Assembly (NCBI GenBank): GCA_013376995.1
Contig: JACAAZ010000004.1
Span: forward strand, 1 to 64,000
DNA length: 64,000 nt
Source: Bacteroidota bacterium
GTDB lineage: Bacteria; Bacteroidota; Bacteroidia; Bacteroidales; UBA4417
Direction: 5' to 3'
Under the pieces are notes generated by a model. That model was given only the letters and a program-made list of their open reading frames with translations, was not told the DNA's origin and made no database searches. Shown piece by piece: positions 2,516 through 47,525 of this stretch (within the stretch, counting starts at the first letter, position 1; each line of letters begins with the position of its first letter). Made by a program: the position numbers and the translations under genes.

Positions 2516-2517
2516 AA

Positions 2518-3034
2518 TGACCATCGATTGACCATCGAATGACCATTGACTGACCATCGATTGACCATTGAATGACCATTGAATGACCATTGAATGACCA
2601 TCGAATGACCATTAACTGACCATCGAATGACCATTGACTGACCATTGAATACCCATTGAATGACCATCGATTGACCATCGAATGACCATTGACTGACCAT
2701 CGAATGACCATTGACTGACCATTGACTGACCATTGAATGACCATTGACTGACCATCGAATGACCATTGACTGACCATCGAATGACCATTGACTGACCATT
2801 GAATGACCATTGAATGACCATCGCATGACCATTGACTGACCATTGACTGACCATTGAATGACCATCGATTGACCATTGACTGACCATTGACTGACCATTG
2901 AATGACCATTGAATGACCATCGCATGACCATTGAATGACCATTGAATGACCATTGAATGACCATTGAATGACCATCGATTGACCATCGATTGACCATTGA
3001 CTGACCATTGACTGACCATTGAATGACCATTGTA
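2518..3034. repeat. 11-nt tandem repeat array, 47 units of TGACCATYGAN
   Basis: The 517 bp divide exactly into 47 units of 11 nt. The last intact unit, starting at 3024, is in phase with the first at 2518, so no net indel has occurred. The core TGACCAT is nearly constant. Variation concentrates at units of type TTGAA, TTGAC, CGAT, CGAA and CGCA; rare variants are TACCCATTGAA near 2650 and TGACCATTAAC near 2611. Degenerate units extend the array to about 2486 and 3045. It fills the space between the divergent S37-peptidase and HD-protein genes. All three minus-strand frames are open and give the same 11-residue pattern, so it is not convincingly coding. It lacks the spacer structure of CRISPR. 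Confidence 0.95.
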
Positions 3035-3100
3035 TAACTATTGTATAGCCACACCTATCCCCATTCCCATCCATTGTTTAAATTTGTCAAAAAAATCACC

Positions 3101-4645: not shown

Positions 4646-5368
4646 CTAAGGTTGCTGATCAAGGTTAGGCTGGATCTTCAAATCCATTGTATTCAACTCT
4701 AAGGCAGTGAGGTTGCCATAACCAGGCCGGTCGGTCATATATACTCCGTTGTCGAGTGCAATGAAATTATAGACATTGTTGATTTTCAGGCAGGAGTAGA
4801 TGAATTCAAGGTCAACCGGTACATGCCCGTGAATAATCCTTCTTCCGGCTAGCTTATCAGGGTCAATTTCATAATCCCTGGTCCAAAGCATCGCATTTTC
4901 ATCTTCAAAGATATTGTCGTTCTTGAAGTTGAACCCGGCGTGAACAATAAGGAATTTGCCGTATTGGGAGTAGAAAGGAAGAGCTTTCAGCCAGTTCACA
5001 TAAATATCCGGGATGTTGCTGATTTTTTTCTCGCCAAAACTTTTCAGTGTAGCTTCGCCTCCAAAACGGAACCACTCTTTGCGCAGCTTACCAGCTCCTC
5101 TGAATCCTTTCCAGAATTTATTATTCTTTTCGGCTTCAATCACCTTCAACATAAAATCCTCATGGTTGCCGCGCAGTGTAAGCACATTGTAATGTTGCGA
5201 TTCCAGTTGCATTATATAATCTATCACACCTTTGCTGTCAGGCCCACGGTCAATAATATCGCCCAGGATAAACAGTTTGTCCCGCTTTTCAAGTTGGATC
5301 ATATCTTCCACCACATACCTGAGTGTCTGCAGGCAGCCGTGTATGTCAGGAATAACCCAGGTCTTCAT
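4646..5368 (-). CDS. PPP-family metallophosphoesterase (serine/threonine phosphatase-like)
   Basis: The 240-residue cytoplasmic enzyme shows the PPP signature in order: DIHG at residues 8-11, GDIIDRG at 36-42 and RGNHED at 66-71. HAGF and GHVPV follow in the C-terminal half and supply the remaining metal-binding histidines. Bacterial relatives hydrolyse phosphoproteins, bis(5'-nucleosyl) polyphosphates or other phosphoesters, so the substrate is uncertain. The gene stands alone; about 300 bp upstream lies gpmA with a heptanucleotide array at its 3' end. That gap also holds two direct copies of CCGCGGATT near 5550-5570, but no gene. Confidence 0.85.
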   Translation of the reverse strand: MKTWVIPDIHGCLQTLRYVVEDMIQLEKRDKLFILGDIIDRGPDSKGVIDYIMQLESQHYNVLTLRGNHEDFMLKVIEAEKNNKFWKGFRGAGKLRKEWFRFGGEATLKSFGEKKISNIPDIYVNWLKALPFYSQYGKFLIVHAGFNFKNDNIFEDENAMLWTRDYEIDPDKLAGRRIIHGHVPVDLEFIYSCLKINNVYNFIALDNGVYMTDRPGYGNLTALELNTMDLKIQPNLDQQP

Positions 5369-5588: not shown

Positions 5589-5679
5589 CTGCCTCCTGCC
5601 TCCTGCCTCCTACCTCCTGCCTAATGTCTTCTGCCTCTTACTTCCTACTTCCTACTTCCTACTTCCTACTTCCTACTTC
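5589..5679. repeat. Heptanucleotide array (13 units, CTGCCTC to CTACTTC) overlapping the gpmA stop
   Basis: Exactly 13 units of 7 nt are in phase. Units near the left are CTGCCTC or CTACCTC; the right six are mostly CTACTTC. The last unit (5673-5679) contains the complement of the gpmA stop codon (CTA at 5673-5675) and the codon before it. The array therefore reaches into the coding sequence. On the gpmA mRNA strand it reads as GAAGTAG repeats directly after the stop. Confidence 0.95.
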
Positions 5680-6419
5680 TTCGCCTTCCCCTGATTTGCA
5701 ACCTCTTCCATCAGCTTCTTAATCACTTCCGGATCACCCAGGAAATAATCTTTCAGTAGATTTAGCTGGTCATCAAATTCAAAAACATAGGGAATACCGG
5801 TAGGAAGATTCAGGCTAACTATATCTTCATCACTAATCTTCTTCAGGACTTTTATCACAGCCCTCAGGCTGTTTCCATGTGCTGCAACCAAAACCTGGTC
5901 CTCTTTTTTCAAGGATTCACGAATAGTGCTCTCCCAGTAAGGAACCATGCGGCCAACGGTTTCCTTCAGTGATTCGGTAAGTGGTGCATCCGCTCCGATT
6001 GCAATATACCGGGGATCCAGCCTTGGATTTCTTGGGTCATCAGCAGCCAATGGAGCCGGTGGGACATCATAACTCCTGCGCCAGATATGCACTTGCTCAT
6101 CACCATATTGTGCAGCAGTTTCAGCCTTATTCATTCCCTGAAGGTTGCCATAATGCTTCTCATTCAACCGCCAGCTTTTCATTACCGGGATCCACATCTG
6201 GTCCATCTCCTCAAGGATATAATTCAGCGTCTTGATAGCTCTTTTAAGGTAGGAAGTATAGGCTATGGAAAAAGTAAATCCATTTTCTCTCAGAACTTTA
6301 CCTGCTTCATGGGCTTCATTTACTCCTCTTTCAGAGAGGTCAACATCTGTCCATCCGGTAAACCGGTTCTCTTTATTCCAAACACTCTCTCCGTGGCGGA
6401 CAAGTACGAGCTTTTTCAT
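5673..6419 (-). CDS. gpmA: 2,3-bisphosphoglycerate-dependent phosphoglycerate mutase
   Basis: The 248-residue protein interconverts 3- and 2-phosphoglycerate in glycolysis and gluconeogenesis. The phosphohistidine motif [10 protein letters not shown] gives R8 and H9, followed by [15 protein letters not shown]. The central [13 protein letters not shown] segment and the second catalytic histidine in AAHGNSLRA are intact. The length is right for the cofactor-dependent (dPGM) type. The last codons (GKAKK-stop) merge into a heptanucleotide array, so the extreme C-terminus may have been shaped by the repeat. A -7 promoter box lies at 6480-6487. The call is secure. Confidence 0.97.
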
Positions 6420-11031: not shown

Positions 11032-11052
11032 CAGGAGGTATAATTGACTATT

Positions 11053-11122
11053 GCAAGTAGCAAGTTTCAAATTTCAAATTTGCACTTTAATATTTGCAAT
11101 TTAACATTTGCGATTTGCCAAT
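11053..11122. repeat. Degenerate heptanucleotide array between nadE-like and acyl-ligase genes
   Basis: Ten 7-nt blocks in phase (for example GCAAGTA, GCAAGTT, TCAAATT, TGCAATT, TGCGATT) fill 70 bp, starting 22 bp after the stop of the NAD synthetase-like gene. The units are more diverged than in the other arrays but keep the period with no indels. Confidence 0.7.
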
Positions 11123-27786: not shown

Positions 27787-27947
27787 TACTTTTATCTTCT
27801 TACCTGACTTTTATCTTTTGACTTTTATCTTTTATCTTTTATCTTTTGACTTTTATCTTTAATCTTTTGACTTTTATCTTTTATCTTTTGACTTTTATCT
27901 TTTATCTTTTATCTTTTGACTTTTGACTTTTATCTTTTGCCTTTTGT
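27787..27947. repeat. Heptanucleotide array, CTTTTAT/CTTTTGA units, abutting a stop codon
   Basis: From 27808 to 27947 there are exactly 20 in-phase 7-nt units, mainly CTTTTAT and CTTTTGA. Three degenerate units extend it left to 27787. The final unit (CTTTTGT, 27941-27947) is immediately followed by the stop codon complement CTA at 27948-27950 of the leftward Omp85-like gene. The 3'-UTR of that gene thus begins directly with ACAAAAG/ATAAAAG repeats. Confidence 0.95.
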
Positions 27948-29282
27948 CTAAAACAAATTCCCAATATTTATATACAAACCTTTCAATCCATCATTTTTAT
28001 TCATGGCAAAGCCGTAATCTACAGCAAGGATGAAATTCTCATTGAGCGCTATACGCAAGCCTGCTCCAAGACTTGAATGCAGCTTGTCCTTATCATAGGA
28101 AAAATCAAAATATTTAGCCTGGTCCTCTGTACTGATTTTGCTCTTGTCAATTTTAACCTCCTGAACAACCATGCCAAAATCCGAGAACCCGTTCAAGGCA
28201 AAATAAAGGTTCTGTTTCCCGACATGCGTTTTCAGGAATTTCCATCTCAATTCCAGGTTGCCGAATGCAACTCCATCACCGACAACCCTGTCGCGCATGA
28301 TACCACGCAGTGTTTTCGCTCCGCCAAGACCATCTGTCTTTGTGATGGAAGAATAGGAACTCAGCATATATGGCTGCATGAAGAAAGGTGCCTTTCCGCC
28401 AATGGTTCCCTGGTAATCCAACCTGTAAACGAAAGATAGCTTATCCTTCAGAATTGTGAAATATTGACGTTGTATCAATACAAGCTTCGAATAAGAAAAT
28501 TCGGGATTGAAAAAGAACCCCGGTGCTATTGTCAGCATGGCTTCCGACCACATACCATGCATGGCATTGGCTTCATTGTCGCGGGTATCGTAAACAAGTC
28601 CCAACTTGATAAAATTGGCATTTCCACCATCTTTTTCCTTGTCGCTAATAATCCCCCAGCCTATATATTCTTTATAGAGAGTTGGTGCATAACTAAGTTT
28701 GTCTTCTTCCTTTTTCCCTTTATTAATGGAATTCAAGTCTACTGTATCCATTTTCATATTCATTATGCCAATACCGGCCAGCCATTTGACCTTTTTCCCC
28801 ACTAAATTTCCCTGCAGGTCAGCAGTGAAGCGGAACATTTTACGCTGGTTCCTGTAAAAGACCCTGGTTATGTAATCATTTGCTTCCTTGTCGGCTAGAT
28901 CAGCATTGTATCGGCTTTGATACCCGTTAAAGCCATAAAAATCGAGGGATTTTTCAGTAAGGTAACTAAGGTCGGCAGTGAGCCTTAAATGATAGGGGAG
29001 AAGATTACGGGCATCATAAAAAAGCTGGTTTGTACCAGACCCTTTGGTATACCTCGATATTTCCATCTTTACCATCTGTTTGTAAGATGGGTATAGGTCG
29101 CCCTTCCCATAGTCGTAAACACTTACAAGTCCTCCGTACTGAAAGCCCATATCCTGGTCGAAGGAGATCGTTGGCAAAAGCCCAAGGCTAAAACCTTTCT
29201 TTTCATTTACTTTTTTATCTGTCTGTGCAGATAAATTCATAGCCACCATGGCAGTTAAAAGAATAAGTAACAGTCTCTGCAT
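27948..29282 (-). CDS. Omp85/BamA-TamA-like outer-membrane beta-barrel protein
   Basis: The 444-residue protein has a signal peptide (start MQRLLLILLTAMVAMNLSAQ). It continues as alternating aromatic beta-strands with long loops, ending in an aromatic F residue (LYINIGNLF), as for a barrel recognised by Bam. The RDN-EAN and GGAKTLRG segments resemble the barrel of the surface-antigen (PF01103) family. POTRA domains are missing. I used the ATG at 29280-29282 because longer starts overlap the acyltransferase gene, which ends 10 bp upstream. It may serve as an outer-membrane conduit; the substrate is unknown. Confidence 0.8.
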   Translation of the reverse strand: MQRLLLILLTAMVAMNLSAQTDKKVNEKKGFSLGLLPTISFDQDMGFQYGGLVSVYDYGKGDLYPSYKQMVKMEISRYTKGSGTNQLFYDARNLLPYHLRLTADLSYLTEKSLDFYGFNGYQSRYNADLADKEANDYITRVFYRNQRKMFRFTADLQGNLVGKKVKWLAGIGIMNMKMDTVDLNSINKGKKEEDKLSYAPTLYKEYIGWGIISDKEKDGGNANFIKLGLVYDTRDNEANAMHGMWSEAMLTIAPGFFFNPEFSYSKLVLIQRQYFTILKDKLSFVYRLDYQGTIGGKAPFFMQPYMLSSYSSITKTDGLGGAKTLRGIMRDRVVGDGVAFGNLELRWKFLKTHVGKQNLYFALNGFSDFGMVVQEVKIDKSKISTEDQAKYFDFSYDKDKLHSSLGAGLRIALNENFILAVDYGFAMNKNDGLKGLYINIGNLF

Positions 29283-29292
29283 AATGAAGGGA

Positions 29293-30645
29293 TTAATTAG
29301 AATAAATAATTTCATTAATTCTGTTGACCAGGTTTTGCCTGGCTTCAATAATTCGGTGATACTGAGGCTTATTGGTTAGGCGTAAAATTAAAAAACGCAA
29401 CTTTCCTCTAAGTTTCAGTAGATGAATATAGAAATGAAATGTAAAGTATCCTGAAAGCGGCAGGCTCAGCCCGAAAAGGAACTTAATCAGCAAACCCTTG
29501 GTGAACAGGCAGAATATTGCCAAGACAAGCAGGTAATAGATCGGGAAAAGCAACAACCCGATACCAAAATGCAGGGAACTAAGGAAAACATGATCTTCTA
29601 CATTCCGGGTCAGCCGGGTTGGCAATTTATAAGGTAGGTAGTTTAGAAGTAATCCGTATAAATGGACGGGAAGAAGGATCAATGATGCCAGCAGGTTTAG
29701 AAATAACAGGACAGGCATTACCTTGTTCTTTTGGACCAGCCAGTCTCTTAGTCCGTGTTTTTCCAGTAATTCCTGGTAAACCTTATTCTCACCCCTGAAG
29801 GCTTCAAATACGGGTGCTGATGAATTCAGTTTTTTGTCTAAACTTGAAATGATGTCCTGGTCAGCCTTTAACCTGTTGGGGTGTGTATTTGCCTCTCCCT
29901 TCTTTTTAAGATAGGATTGCCTGCATAAATTACAGATAGCAAGATATTCAGGGTAGTATTCCTCGTTAGCAATATGAACGATTAGGGGACTCATCGATTT
30001 TGACAGGCTGTCCCTTAAGGCCGAAAGGGCTTTCTGCGGATTTTCCCTGTAAAGGGGAACAAAATCAGCCACCTTTATAGGTTTGCCGTATTGTACCATC
30101 AACCTGGCACCGGGGTCAGAATAATTACTGTAGTCAATCCCAGCCGGAACGATATGGATATCAAGCGAAAAATCTGCTGATTCTTCGGCCATGAAAGCAA
30201 TTCGGCAGATTCCTTTCTTCAGCGTGCGAAGTCTTTTGGTATCCGAATGATTTCCTTCAGGAAACAATGCCAGGGGAGTGCCGTTCTTCAGTACTTCGGC
30301 AGCCATCTTGAAAGAAGCTTCATTTTGACCCATTGTACTGATACCATCACGAATCCTGTAGATAGGGAGTATACGAAAGAAGAAAAGTATTGCGGCAATG
30401 GGTTTTTTCTTGAACATATCAGCACGCGCGAGGAATGCAACCCTTCCATTCGCAGCAAAAAGAATAGAAAGAGCATCCATCAAGGCATTCTGGTGATTCC
30501 CCGCATAGATAACAGGCTTGTCCCTGGGTATATTTTCCCTGCCAATTATGGTAAAGGACCTGTAATAAAGCCTGTAGTAAAGAGAAACAGACCGGTAAAC
30601 CAGGGTATAGAAAAAGGAAGGTTTACCGACGTTAGGCAGAAGCAT
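29293..30645 (-). CDS. PlsC-type acyltransferase with C-terminal membrane domain
   Basis: The 450-residue protein carries an N-terminal acyltransferase domain with the catalytic histidine motif NHQNALMD (about 51-58) and FPEGNHS (about 132-138). This is the lysophospholipid or glycerol-phosphate acyltransferase pattern with a longer HX5D spacing. About 300-425 contains several hydrophobic segments, unusual for short PlsC and matching the GPAT/GAT1-like type in Bacteroidota. It acts at the inner membrane and probably acylates a phospholipid precursor. It is followed 10 bp later by the Omp85-like gene. Confidence 0.88.
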   Translation of the reverse strand: MLLPNVGKPSFFYTLVYRSVSLYYRLYYRSFTIIGRENIPRDKPVIYAGNHQNALMDALSILFAANGRVAFLARADMFKKKPIAAILFFFRILPIYRIRDGISTMGQNEASFKMAAEVLKNGTPLALFPEGNHSDTKRLRTLKKGICRIAFMAEESADFSLDIHIVPAGIDYSNYSDPGARLMVQYGKPIKVADFVPLYRENPQKALSALRDSLSKSMSPLIVHIANEEYYPEYLAICNLCRQSYLKKKGEANTHPNRLKADQDIISSLDKKLNSSAPVFEAFRGENKVYQELLEKHGLRDWLVQKNKVMPVLLFLNLLASLILLPVHLYGLLLNYLPYKLPTRLTRNVEDHVFLSSLHFGIGLLLFPIYYLLVLAIFCLFTKGLLIKFLFGLSLPLSGYFTFHFYIHLLKLRGKLRFLILRLTNKPQYHRIIEARQNLVNRINEIIYSN

Positions 30646-44383: not shown

Positions 44384-45601
44384 TTAAATAGCTCCTTCGT
44401 CATAAGCTTTCTCACCATGGATTGCAATGTCCAGTCCTAATGCTTCTTCTTCTTCGGAAACACGAACTCTCGTGATCATATTAATCAATGAAAGCATAAT
44501 GTAAGTGAAAACAAATGCATATGCTGAAGCTGCAACAACAGCAACAAATTGCTTGAAGAAGAAATTTCCGTTTCCAAACCATAAACCATCAGCACCACTG
44601 GCATTAACTGCTTTGCTTGCAAATACTCCCAAAAGAATAGTTCCCAAAACACCTCCAATTCCGTGGACACCCCATACATCCAATGCATCATCCCATTTCA
44701 TGCGGTTCTTGAGCATAACAGCAAAATAACAAACTAAGCCTGCTATGCTACCAATTATAGGCGCTGCCCAGAGTGGTACATACCCAGCACATGGTGTAAT
44801 AGTAGCAAGCCCTGCAATGGAACCAGTGAGTAGTCCAACAAATTTTGGTCTTCGTTCACGGATCCATTCAACGACAACCCAGGCAACTGTAGCAAAAGAA
44901 GCAGCAACATCCGTATTCAAAAATGCAGTGGAAGTAACAAAATCAACATTTAACTCACTCCCGGCATTAAAACCATACCATCCGAACCAAAGCAAGCCAC
45001 TTCCAATAGCAACAAGTGGAATACTATTGGGAGTTGAATTTTTGTTTGCCCTGGCTCCAATATAAAAAACAGAAGCTAGAGCTGCAAAACCGGCAGTTGC
45101 ATGAACAACAATACCACCTGCAAAATCAAGAACACCCCATTCAGCTAATAAACCACCACCCCAAATCATATGCACGAATGGATAGTAGACAAAGATTTGC
45201 CAAACAGTTAAGAAAATAAGATAGGATTTGAAGGTGACCCTGTTCACGAAAGCTCCGGTAATAAGAGCAGGAGTGATAATAGCGAACATCATTTGATAGG
45301 CAATGAATACAATTTCAGGTATCTTCCCGTTAGAATACATTGAATTGATGCCAACTCCATTGAGAAATGCCTTGTCAAAGTTTCCCAGGATACCACCGGC
45401 TCCCCCGCTAAAACATAGTGAGTAGCCAAAAATGAACCACAGAACTGTTGTCCATCCAAGGGAGGCAAAACTCTGGATCATAATGGCCAGGATGTTACGT
45501 TTGGTGGCTAATCCACCATAAAAGAAAGCAAGTCCGGGGGTCATAAGCATGACGAGGCTGCAAGCTAGCAGCATAAACCCGGTTGAACCCGTGTCGAGCA
45601 T
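44384..45601 (-). CDS. amt: Ammonium transporter (Amt/Rh family)
   Basis: The 405-residue integral membrane protein has about 11 hydrophobic helices and Amt motifs: MTPGLAFFYGGL (about 20-31), then the pore histidine in VHATAGFAALASV and a second histidine in DVWGVHGIGGVLGT. It conducts ammonium or ammonia across the inner membrane. The upstream TorF porin gene ends 24 bp before it, so both belong to one operon. No P-II (GlnK) gene is adjacent. The start at 45601 agrees with family length. The call is secure. Confidence 0.95.
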   Translation of the reverse strand: MLDTGSTGFMLLACSLVMLMTPGLAFFYGGLATKRNILAIMIQSFASLGWTTVLWFIFGYSLCFSGGAGGILGNFDKAFLNGVGINSMYSNGKIPEIVFIAYQMMFAIITPALITGAFVNRVTFKSYLIFLTVWQIFVYYPFVHMIWGGGLLAEWGVLDFAGGIVVHATAGFAALASVFYIGARANKNSTPNSIPLVAIGSGLLWFGWYGFNAGSELNVDFVTSTAFLNTDVAASFATVAWVVVEWIRERRPKFVGLLTGSIAGLATITPCAGYVPLWAAPIIGSIAGLVCYFAVMLKNRMKWDDALDVWGVHGIGGVLGTILLGVFASKAVNASGADGLWFGNGNFFFKQFVAVVAASAYAFVFTYIMLSLINMITRVRVSEEEEALGLDIAIHGEKAYDEGAI

Positions 45602-45625
45602 AAGATTGAAATTAAAAGGTTTGAA

Positions 45626-46402
45626 TTATTGTAAGGTGATCCCGAAAACAAGAAAAATGTTCTCGGCTTGAGGATTGGTTATGAGAGATGTGCTGACTGG
45701 AAGTGAAAAGGAGTCAGAGATCTTGATGTTCTTTGTGGCAGTGATGCCAAGGTTTACAACACCCGGACTTTCACCATAAAACCCGGTTTCACCCTTGTCC
45801 TTGTCTGGCCTGTCAGGTGTGAACCCAAGAAATGCATTGCAACTTGTTTCGCTGATATTAAAATTGTAGCCTAACTCCACATAGGTGGAATACATGTTAT
45901 CCCCGTTGCTTTTTTTAGCATCGGCTCCATAAACATTTGTTGCTACCATAAGGCTTATGGGAATATCCTTATTGCCCAGGAACTTGGCGGCAACTTCAAA
46001 TAAATGGCCGGTTTGATCTTTTTTATAGCTGAAATAATGATTCTTTATTGTATCTTCAAATGGAAGGAAATAATCAGTTACAGTAATATTAAACGACTTG
46101 CCAAGGTTGACAGAAGCATAAAGATCCGCTTCCTGCCGCTTAATAGTGTGGCTCAATGAGTAAGCGCCCCATGCACCCAGCGTGAAATTGCCATAAGTAT
46201 ACTCAAGGCAAGGTTGAATGCTGGGAGCAGATCCGCCAAGATTCATTCCCCGCCATATGTAACGGCTCACGATATCAGCAGAAGCATCCAGTTTACCCTT
46301 TGTTTTTTCTTCCTGGGCTGATAAATGCATGAAACAGCCACTTAATAAGGCAGTTAGCAATAGAAATAGCAAAATGTTTCTGTGCTTTGTCATACTATTC
46401 AT
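45626..46402 (-). CDS. TorF-family putative porin
   Basis: The 258-residue outer-membrane protein has a signal peptide (to about residue 30). It matches the TorF (toluene/putative porin) signature at the start of the barrel (GKLDASADIVSRYIWRGMNLGG), then SIQPCLEYTYGNFTLGAWGAYS. Amphipathic strands follow through the C-terminus. It precedes the ammonium transporter by 24 bp. The pairing suggests that it lets ammonium or another small solute through the outer membrane when nitrogen is limiting; that role is inference. An alternative start three codons in is possible. Confidence 0.85.
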   Translation of the reverse strand: MNSMTKHRNILLFLLLTALLSGCFMHLSAQEEKTKGKLDASADIVSRYIWRGMNLGGSAPSIQPCLEYTYGNFTLGAWGAYSLSHTIKRQEADLYASVNLGKSFNITVTDYFLPFEDTIKNHYFSYKKDQTGHLFEVAAKFLGNKDIPISLMVATNVYGADAKKSNGDNMYSTYVELGYNFNISETSCNAFLGFTPDRPDKDKGETGFYGESPGVVNLGITATKNIKISDSFSLPVSTSLITNPQAENIFLVFGITLQ

Positions 46403-46649
46403 TGTGTTTGATTTGCGGCAAAATTTGCTCTACAAAACAGTTCACACAATAGAGGTAACTTGATTTTTATCTGCACAAATTACGTAAAAAAATTGCTTAT
46501 AAAGCGTAGCTGGGATCGACTTGGATTTTTTCAGCATTACAAGGGGGATCAGTTGCAGAGTTCCGGGTTCCATATTCCGAGTGCAATAGCCCTAATAACT
46601 CAATGCTTTGTATTTTGATTTTTGCATTTCTATCTTTTTGCCCTCCTCA

Positions 46650-46861
46650 ACGCCCTTCGCCCTTTACCCTTTGCGCTTCGCCATCAGCCCTATGCCCTTT
46701 GCGCTAAGCCCTACGCCCTTCGCCCTTCGCCCTTTGCCCTTTGCCTTATGCCCTTTGCGCTTAGCCCTTAGCCCTACGCCCTTCGCTCTTCGCCCTACGC
46801 TCTTCGCCCTACGCTCTTCGCCCTACGCTCTTCGCCCTACGCGCTTCGCCCTACGCGCTTC
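46650..46861. repeat. Heptanucleotide array (30 units, GCCCTWC/GCTCTTC type) overlapping a stop codon
   Basis: From 46650 there are exactly 30 in-phase 7-nt units, such as GCCCTTC, GCCCTAC, GCTCTTC and GCGCTTC. Toward the right they alternate regularly between GCCCTAC and GCTCTTC or GCGCTTC, giving a 14-nt higher-order repeat. The right end includes bases 46860-46861 of the response-regulator stop codon. The whole 457-bp gap between the TorF gene and the response regulator holds no other gene. Confidence 0.95.
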
Positions 46862-47525
46862 AGATCTCAATCAGCTTTTTCCTTATTGCAAACTTCACCA
46901 GTTCGGCAGTTGTGTGCATTTCAAGCTTTTGCATAATATGGCTCTTATGTGATTCCACCGTTCGGATGCTGATAAATAGCTTCTCTGCAATTTCATAATT
47001 GGGTATACCTTCTGCCAGCATCCTGAGTACTTCCAATTCTCGTTTGGATAGTTCTTCAAGGCCTTTGTCATTGTCTTTCTTTGATTTCGCCTTCTTGATA
47101 TAGCTCTTAAGCATGATCTCTGATATCTGCTGACTGTAATATTCCTTACCATCCGCGATACTTTGAATAGCTTCCAGCAATTCATCTCGGGTAGTGTTCT
47201 TGGGTAAATATCCCTTAGCACCTTCAGAGAGTGCTTTGAAAATGAAATCTTCACCTGTATACATTGACAGGATAAGAATCCTGATTTCAGGATAGGCGGT
47301 TGAAATCCTACCGCAAATCTCAAGCCCCGAGATATCAGGTAGTTCAATGTCAAGGATCAAAACATCGGCAGGATGATTCTGAAGGACCTCAAACAACTCC
47401 TTTCCTGTAGCTGCCTGTGCCACAATTGCAATTTCTGCAGCTCCATTAAGCATCGATTTCAAACCATCTCTAACAACCTGATGATCATCTACAAGGATTA
47501 TTTTTATGGGTTCTTGTTTCATCAT
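46860..47525 (-). CDS. NarL/LuxR-family response regulator
   Basis: The 221-residue regulator has a receiver domain (IIILVDDHQVVRDGLKSML, phosphorylated Asp in LILDIELPD, about residue 57) and a LuxR-type helix-turn-helix (LSKRELEVLRMLAEGIPNYEIAEKLFISIRTVESH, about 155-190). Its start overlaps the upstream histidine kinase stop (ATGA), so the two are translationally coupled and probably form one system. Its own stop codon lies in a heptanucleotide array. Target genes are unknown. Confidence 0.93.
   Translation of the reverse strand: MMKQEPIKIILVDDHQVVRDGLKSMLNGAAEIAIVAQAATGKELFEVLQNHPADVLILDIELPDISGLEICGRISTAYPEIRILILSMYTGEDFIFKALSEGAKGYLPKNTTRDELLEAIQSIADGKEYYSQQISEIMLKSYIKKAKSKKDNDKGLEELSKRELEVLRMLAEGIPNYEIAEKLFISIRTVESHKSHIMQKLEMHTTAELVKFAIRKKLIEI

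Follow-up and report, generated by a model that had tools for sequence, protein, structure and literature searches.

Short tandem heptamers lying between genes, known as STRRs, occur in heterocystous cyanobacteria, and the arrays described here resemble them at the level of that general description. In a 2007 survey by Mrazek, as cited in PMC4679880 and PMC4692102, heptanucleotides were the most abundant long simple sequence repeats in most genomes and slippage was proposed; the period-7 excess and the slippage proposal are both points of likeness to the present arrays, and neither stop anchoring nor unit turnover is mentioned in those citations. Coding-strand heptamers adjacent to stop codons, with the units GGGAATC and GGGGA(C/T)T, have been described in Xanthomonas and Nostoc (Rehm 2015; PMC4692102). 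These repeats share with ours a seven-nucleotide step, an intergenic location, scarcity between divergent genes, and the lack of any one gene class. A further likeness is that downstream of genes they occupy the coding strand and lie close to the stop or overlap it, whereas upstream of genes they occupy the non-coding strand, and at sites shared by two Xanthomonas both the length and the sequence of the pattern vary. They differ in having one unit, G-tracts capable of forming quadruplexes, and a preference for four copies. In contrast, the arrays analysed here fall into many unit families, reach up to 462 bp after merging, and have common units without GGG, and sister species each carry a different unit at one site. 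The TAACTGA heptamers of Beggiatoaceae, cyanobacteria, and five Bacteroidetes (MacGregor 2015; PMC4679880) are likewise intergenic, with some long mixed arrays in Bacteroidetes and some lying over stop codons, but they consist of one unit and in the main genome are mostly found just upstream of starts. Searches of open-licence papers listed no description of mixed heptamers anchored at stops in Bacteroidota, nor of units being replaced at stops that species share. Stop-adjacent heptamers are already known from Xanthomonas and Nostoc, and the arrays here can be regarded as a variant with many units and apparent turnover at shared stops.

The window, meaning the whole 64-kb stretch of DNA analysed, carries four strong heptamer arrays, all read on the minus strand. 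The array at 46651 to 46861 (mRNA-strand units AAGGGCG, TAGGGCG, and AAGCGCG) was called by TRF at period 7 with 30 copies and lies 0 nt from the stop of a response regulator gene (46860 to 47525, minus strand) encoding a receiver domain and a LuxR-type HTH (PF00072 and PF00196). TRF and a lag-7 scan also identified an array at 27808 to 27949 (AAAAGAT, AAAAGTC, and AAAAGGC) that adjoins the stop of a minus-strand gene ending at 27948. This gene, located 5′ of the array at 27948 to 29348, is an ORF without a known family; its start is uncertain (29282 according to the codon-usage caller), and 27948 to 29282 had no Pfam match. A third array, detected by both methods at 5589 to 5679 (GAAGTAG and AGGCAGG), contains in its first unit, in register (P = 0.021), the TAG stop of a minus-strand gene at 5673 to 6419 encoding a histidine-phosphatase-family protein (PF00300), referred to below as the mutase and which we take to be the phosphoglycerate mutase GpmA. 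The fourth, at 1 to 123 (AAAAGAT and AAAAGAC; TRF and lag-7 scan), lies 122 nt from the nearest stop and begins at base 1 of contig C34, so it is cut by the assembly. A second contig, C26, ends within a heptamer array at positions 2564 to 2686 of excised locus L059. Arrays thus seem to break assembly, and their number and length are underestimated.

The first-pass annotation had listed six sites with an exact 7-nt period. A common period of seven holds for the four strong ones, with lag-7 identities of 0.88 (1-125), 0.85 (5589-5679), 0.75 (27787-27947), and 0.75 (46650-46861) and local scores of 87, 55, 79, and 92, respectively. The remaining two, both on the plus strand, are weak: 11053-11122 (identity, 0.67; score, 17), a period-7/14 array spanning 11051 to 11122 that starts 19 nt after the stop of a gene with an NAD-synthase domain, and 2444-2478 (identity, 0.68; score, 10), a short run seen in the lag-7 identity test. 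Neither appeared at lag 7 in a window scan with a minimum score of 25, and TRF, which called the four strong arrays at period 7, reported 11070-11116 at period 14 only. All six exceeded 1000 shuffles of their own letters, although these sites were picked by eye and their P values are flattering. "Exact" was too strong a word, as the units vary. The same scan over periods 2 to 60 found only period 7 with its multiples and one period-11 array with its multiples. That three arrays overlap or abut the stop of the leftward gene was confirmed, the stops at 5673, 27948, and 46860 lying −7, −2, and 0 nt from the array edge. The plus strand of these three is 16, 19, and 24% purine, so their mRNA strand is purine-rich, as had also been proposed.

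To go beyond the window, 51 stretches of the same genome, the window among them, were analysed (this genome is labeled G000; other G numbers are relatives, and L numbers denote excised loci), comprising 1,021,056 bases of 5.05 Mb (∼20%). Period 7 dominates the tandem arrays of this sample, with 43 arrays covering 6,180 bp, compared with nine of period 11, four each of periods 14 and 21, two of period 8, and one each of periods 9, 15, 18, 31, 32, and 37. In the 777 kb of stretches not chosen for matches there were 24 period-7 and 7 period-11 arrays. Simulated copies of the first 621 kb under an order-3 Markov model contained just four runs, all of period 1, and period 7 is therefore far above chance. 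The seven-nucleotide step is already visible in short duplications below the array threshold: runs of at least 9 numbered 12 at lag 7 (1.2 expected from five simulated copies) and 15 at lag 14 (0.2 expected). The corresponding counts were 5 at lag 8 (1.4 expected), 8 at lag 16 (1.0), 7 at lag 17 (0.8), and 6 at lag 21 (1.2), and 1, 2, 3, and 0 at lags 5, 6, 9, and 10 (2.2, 1.0, 1.2, and 0.6 expected). By array count, the commonest units were AAAAGAC (9), AAGCCGG, AAGTAGG, and AAAAGAT (8 each), and AACCAAT (5), and several units were often mixed within one array. The claim that different units converge on one period was thereby borne out. In their period-7 excess between genes the arrays belong with the intergenic heptameric simple sequence repeats of the Mrazek and Rehm kind, and they have neither the fixed GGG unit nor the roughly four copies of the GGGAATC-type quadruplex repeats.

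To place the arrays relative to genes, 47 merged arrays in G000 were considered, of which 40 were usable; seven lay inside a called gene or lacked a gene on one side. Genes came from our own, non-standard codon-usage caller with approximate starts, and the thresholds and the 80-nt joining rule were set by us. Chance expectations came from 5000 permutations in which every array was moved randomly within the intergenic region that contains it, after subtraction of the array's length. The arrays are anchored at stop codons: 14/40 lay within 10 nt of the upstream stop, compared with 2.6 expected and with none of the 5000 permutations giving as many, and 12 lay within 5 nt (1.4 expected). They are nearly absent between divergent genes, where one of the 40 was found although 23% of intergenic bases lie there (P = 0.0004). 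Near starts there were none within 5 nt (1.3 expected) and four of 40 within 10 nt (2.4 expected; P = 0.19), which, together with the absence of TAACTGA from the 30 of 38 units listed, separates them from the TAACTGA heptamers. Their coding-strand position near or over stops and their rarity between divergent genes agree with repeats of the Mrazek and Rehm kind. Relative to the closest upstream stop, 16 of the 44 array edges fell at −15 to +8 and 28 at +19 to +1708, with none among the 44 from +9 to +18.

With the window excluded, 11/36 arrays lay within 10 nt of a stop (2.4 expected), and in the stretches not chosen for matches the effect was smaller, at 6/22 (1.7 expected; P = 0.0016). TRF as a second caller placed 10 of 58 arrays within 5 nt of a stop (1.5 expected); in unchosen stretches it placed 3/31 within 5 nt (0.9 expected; P = 0.049) and the same number within 10 nt (1.5 expected; P = 0.19). 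TRF arrays of other periods also leaned to stops, with 3/23 within 5 nt (0.68 expected; P = 0.025), and the pull of stops is thus not strictly specific to seven. The stop was in register with the array in six of the 16 anchored arrays and out of register in the other 10. Arrays occupy few stops, as 26/358 of those in G000 with at least 70 nt of room scored at least 9 at lag 7, and the 13 of 16 anchored genes that were scanned belonged to mixed families with no single functional class.

Near stops, the mRNA strand is the G-rich one. The purine strand coincided with the mRNA strand in 13/14 of the arrays lying no more than 20 nt from a stop, and in 8/17 of those farther away (8:9), which is no bias; eight balanced arrays and one between divergent genes were left out of this count. 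When segments within 40 nt of a stop were scored for G versus C, omitting those with a skew under 0.15, the G-rich strand was the mRNA strand by 13:1 in G000, 15:1 in G002, G013, G011, and G005 together, and 4:0 in G014. On the start side, segments within 40 nt had the G-rich strand leading away from the gene by 10:2, 5:1, and 0:0 in the same three sets. Array-free flanks of G000 gave 64:77 at stops and 164:46 at starts. The start-side skew is therefore ordinary leader composition and was rejected as an array property, whereas the stop-side skew is not of this kind (arrays versus array-free flanks, P = 0.0006). Where a G-rich array is followed by a C-rich array in one intergenic region, the two were not complementary copies (8 pairs in G000 and 5 in relatives). 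Hairpins between such opposite arrays were also rejected, as the fraction of shared 6-mers was 0.08 within and 0.14 between regions in the 8 pairs of G000 and 0.07 and 0.15 in the 5 pairs of relatives.

At the mutase locus, an array probably arose within an existing gene arrangement. Of 40 Bacteroidota loci examined, 13 have a phosphatase gene behind the mutase gene, separated from it by −1 to 87 nt. The window retains this pair, the downstream neighbor being a metallophosphoesterase gene (4646 to 5368, minus strand; PF00149), but the gap is 304 nt, of which the first ∼84 nt is array. Most likely, the array grew at the mutase stop within an old gene pair. Among named genomes, Bacteroidetes and Bacteroidales MAGs gave the mutase's best matches, which, together with the family composition, places the genome in Bacteroidota. 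The end of the mutase is unaltered, with 12 of 13 congeners matching through residue 248, its last. Truncation of proteins by arrays was rejected on this basis and because the YceG-like protein and the queuine transferase end in agreement with their relatives, 11 excised loci having been compared for each.

The period extends to relatives with other letters. G000 has 176 AAAAGAY pairs and the 15 congeners between 0 and 9 each, while YAGAAAA, used as a control pattern, gave 88 pairs in G002, 53 in G013, 21 in G007, 15 in G010, and 10 in G011. A gene was called upstream of 28 of the 31 YAGAAAA arrays in the sampled stretches, and 23 of those 28 arrays were in the sense orientation relative to that gene. 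Congener contigs were taken in some cases for AAAAGAY matches, in four for holding an orthologue, and in some for YAGAAAA arrays. In this partly chosen genus sample, 7/28 usable arrays lay within 5 nt of a stop (2.2 expected; P = 0.0008) and eight within 20 nt (5.3 expected; P = 0.09). Around the mutase in the wider Bacteroidota, 5/14 usable arrays were at stops (1.7 expected; P = 0.0065), in a set covering periods 7 and 8 and their multiples that is biased by one locus, L143, added by hand for its array. In that wider set 5/14 also lay within 10 nt of starts (1.4 expected; P = 0.007), which counts against a stop-only rule. No period-7 array was present across the 347 kb sampled from 14 genomes that belong to other families of this order; the trait is thus patchy, and a wide spread within the order was rejected. 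Period-8 arrays at or over a called stop (within 10 nt) were seen at L086 19820-19876, L105 11570-11629, L110 3983-4165, L116 13847-13930, and L219 4977-5053, and further period-8 arrays were present in the Bacteroidota loci L204, L217, L277, L282, and L283. The step may be 7 or 8 depending on the lineage.

Five stop-anchored genes were traced through the genus, an array being scored when lag-7 reached at least 9 between −7 and +70 around the stop. A YceG-like match was present in 13 congeners and a queuine transferase match in 14, and loci were excised from 11 congeners in either case. Arrays were present at 17 of 62 orthologous stops in other species: 6/11 for an acyl-CoA dehydrogenase, 6/11 for an AlaDH-like protein, 2/11 for the YceG-like protein, 1/11 for the queuine transferase, and 2/18 for response regulators, paralogues included, so that 12 of the 17 came from two of the five genes. 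The count leaves out G000's own genes, a contig-end orthologue (L300), and two homologues of the acyl-CoA dehydrogenase that are distant, with identities of 48 and 47%, and scored 3 and 4. Among the G000 genes left out is a second response regulator, with 53% identity to that at 46860-47525 and a period-7 array behind its stop (L081; C34, 102190-102843).

Different letters occur at some of these orthologous stops. The acyl-CoA dehydrogenase array is of the GGAAGCC type in G000, GGATTTC in G009 (91% identical protein), GGATGTT in G011 (90%), the GGGGTTA type in G001 (89%), the GGATTGG type in G008 (87%), and GAATAGT in G002 (86%); G014 (94%) instead carries a period-8 array, GGGGACAA, which falls outside the count. 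That orthologous stops of sister species can carry arrays with different units appears to be new here. In G000 the joined array at this gene is 407 nt long and enters a C-rich part, so that overall C exceeds G.

How far this recurrence exceeds expectation depends on the base rate. Among stops with at least 70 nt of room, arrays were found at 13/68 in G014, 8/81 in G002, G013, G011, and G005, and 2/109 in other families; the congener samples were partly chosen, and two orthologue-chosen stops count in G014's 13/68. Against base rates of 8.4, 15, and 20%, the 17/62 recurrence has a P of 1e−5, 0.008, and 0.10, respectively, and is thus not significant at the highest of these, which corresponds to G014 alone. 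For the two best genes by themselves (12/22), P is 0.0003 at the 20% rate too, although both were singled out from five as the best, and recurrence is strong for these two only. The first-pass annotation had proposed that the arrays are anchored at stops and had counted an origin private to one strain as evidence against its reading. The former was upheld by the G000 counts, with the TRF control and relatives in agreement, and the latter set aside, as stop-anchored period-7 arrays are present in genus relatives and at orthologous stops.

Several other readings were not supported. No terminators were predicted in 45600-47000, covering the 46650 site only, and the RNA of 46400-46880 was less structured than shuffles (fold z, +2.2). 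An intrinsic terminator or REP-like hairpin at 46650 was rejected on these results and on the lack of complementarity between opposite arrays in 13 intergenic regions. No Rfam model matched the window at gathering score, and a described RNA family was rejected. Provision of spare stops in all frames was considered, as the 16 anchored arrays have 6.1 stops per 100 nt in sense and 2.5 in antisense (P = 0.011), but shuffled letters gave a similar 5.3 (P = 0.23), so the sense excess reflects composition. Polar growth from the stop end was not supported, with lag-7 identity of 0.79 in the third nearest the stop and 0.80 in the farthest third (P = 0.91). Loss of mismatch repair was rejected, since full-length MutS and MutL matches were present in G000 and no mutator was visible. 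Phase-variation repeats lie inside or at the 5′ end of surface-structure genes; here array edges cluster at the 3′ ends of genes, and the 13 of 16 anchored genes scanned are of mixed families, which sets the arrays apart from that kind.

The explanation favored here, to which we give about an even chance, is repeated slippage, seven nucleotides at a time, where the ribosome-free 3′ UTR begins, with the units turning over. Tandem arrays would grow and shrink in seven-nucleotide steps, mostly directly 3′ of the stop codon, where the transcript would first become free of ribosomes. Slippage would produce the arrays, and those behind stops would survive because insertion before the next functional element probably does little harm. 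An old array could persist while point mutation and slippage swapped its units, so that site and period would outlive the letters; repeated independent birth at one site would look the same. That the mutase and its partner are still neighbors at 304 nt fits tolerated insertion, and a tolerated slot also predicts the lean of other-period arrays to stops. The empty interval from +9 to +18, however, argues against plain tolerance, under which arrays should be scattered through the first tens of nucleotides 3′ of the stop, and the sharp start at the stop together with the sense G excess calls for something more. Also weighing against the favored reading are the lack of purine bias in arrays farther than 20 nt from a stop, the complete MutS and MutL, the register seen in only 6/16 anchored arrays, the smaller effect in unchosen stretches, and the recurrence that loses significance at a 20% base rate. 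Candidates are R-loops or selection against C-rich RNA behind the stop. In an R-loop, a possible driver of both the strand and the sharp start, naked G-rich nascent RNA would pair with the template behind RNA polymerase and leave the other strand exposed. Such a driver would favor strongly expressed genes, and the codon bias of anchored genes was no different (P = 0.81), which argues against it and against high expression in general. The seven-nucleotide step itself is not explained by any result here; the standing proposal, as cited in PMC4679880 and PMC4692102, is Mrazek's polymerase contact length.

Selection could instead keep a G-rich, C-poor heptad tract behind the stop as a sequence-independent 3′-UTR element, for which period and base skew alone would count while its letters drift, a reading that we consider unlikely. 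A role as 3′-UTR elements had been among the suggestions of the first-pass annotation. C-rich RNA loads the terminator protein Rho, and the tract might be kept because C-rich RNA in that position would do so or because it slows 3′ exonucleases. The strand bias and the recurrence at some orthologous stops are expected of such an element, as sister species share stop and period with different letters, the sense G excess at stops is absent from array-free flanks, and the RNA of 46400-46880 is less structured than shuffles. For the two best genes, G exceeded C across the 40 nt that follow the stop in 10/12 orthologues with an array, yet also in 7/10 without one. Against this reading, few stops carry an array, and the anchored genes scanned form no one functional class. 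Xanthomonas and Nostoc follow the same strand rule, and transcripts there start or stop more at quadruplex-forming than at control repeats, although the study could not assign them a role in gene regulation (PMC4692102). An extended version of this reading, which strikes us as rather unlikely, is that period, strand skew, and stop contact, and not letters, would define a post-stop element that selection keeps at the same genes across the genus while its sequence is replaced by species; such a tract with interchangeable letters would serve these genomes and also, spelled in other units, Xanthomonas and Nostoc.

Two further readings concern where the letters come from. Seeding from the gene end, in which a heptamer with the last codon and stop is duplicated and grows outward, is decidedly doubtful: it would account for the 6/16 anchored arrays with the stop in register, such as GAAGTAG at the mutase, but the other 10 show no register, the array units of the relatives' acyl-CoA dehydrogenases are unlike that gene's conserved end, and one genome carries the same units at many loci. 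In its favor, GGCTGTAG is found at the queuine tRNA-ribosyltransferase, and two array-free congeners (L266 and L267) have the same gene end. TAG stops were also over-represented near arrays at some cut-offs: in G000, at 8/16 within 10 nt compared with 138/599 (P = 0.03), 8/20 within 40 nt (P = 0.11), and 11/27 within 100 nt (P = 0.06), and in relatives the values at these distances were 3/8 (P = 0.42), 7/12 (P = 0.013), and 10/22 (P = 0.035). A mobile process, raised by the first-pass annotation, was weakened by the comparison of array letters and is now improbable. An enzyme or recombination would copy a species-specific heptamer family to many loci, consistent with the 176 AAAAGAY pairs of G000 against 0 to 9 in each of the 15 congeners, the 88 YAGAAAA pairs of G002, and a longest stretch common to two loci of 63 nt. 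However, the mean longest shared stretch only slightly exceeded that of unit-shuffled copies (21.7 versus 17.1 nt for the AAAAG family and 14.4 versus 12.9 nt for the GGAAG family), each genome has several unit families, and two opposite arrays within an intergenic region are no more alike in letters than unrelated ones.

The bacterial preference for a step of seven has been a puzzle since the 2007 survey. A single genus with many arrays of different letters, some at shared stops, allows period, strand, and stop contact to be studied apart from sequence. A mutational cause would point to slippage linked to RNA that is free of ribosomes at the ends of genes, and a selective one to a 3′-UTR element with no conserved letters, invisible to motif searches. 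The same placement rule in Xanthomonas and Nostoc (PMC4692102) argues for a general cause.

At the AlaDH-like gene, the distance to the next same-strand ORF varied from 64 to 380 nt between species (L303 to L314). In several of these species the last codons and stop look array-like, and some protein ends of this family may have been written by the array. A second period was present in the window as a 530-nt array with an 11-nt unit of the AATGACCATTG type, located at 2516-3047 between divergent genes, and seven more merged arrays of similar 11-mers were identified in the sampled part of the genome.
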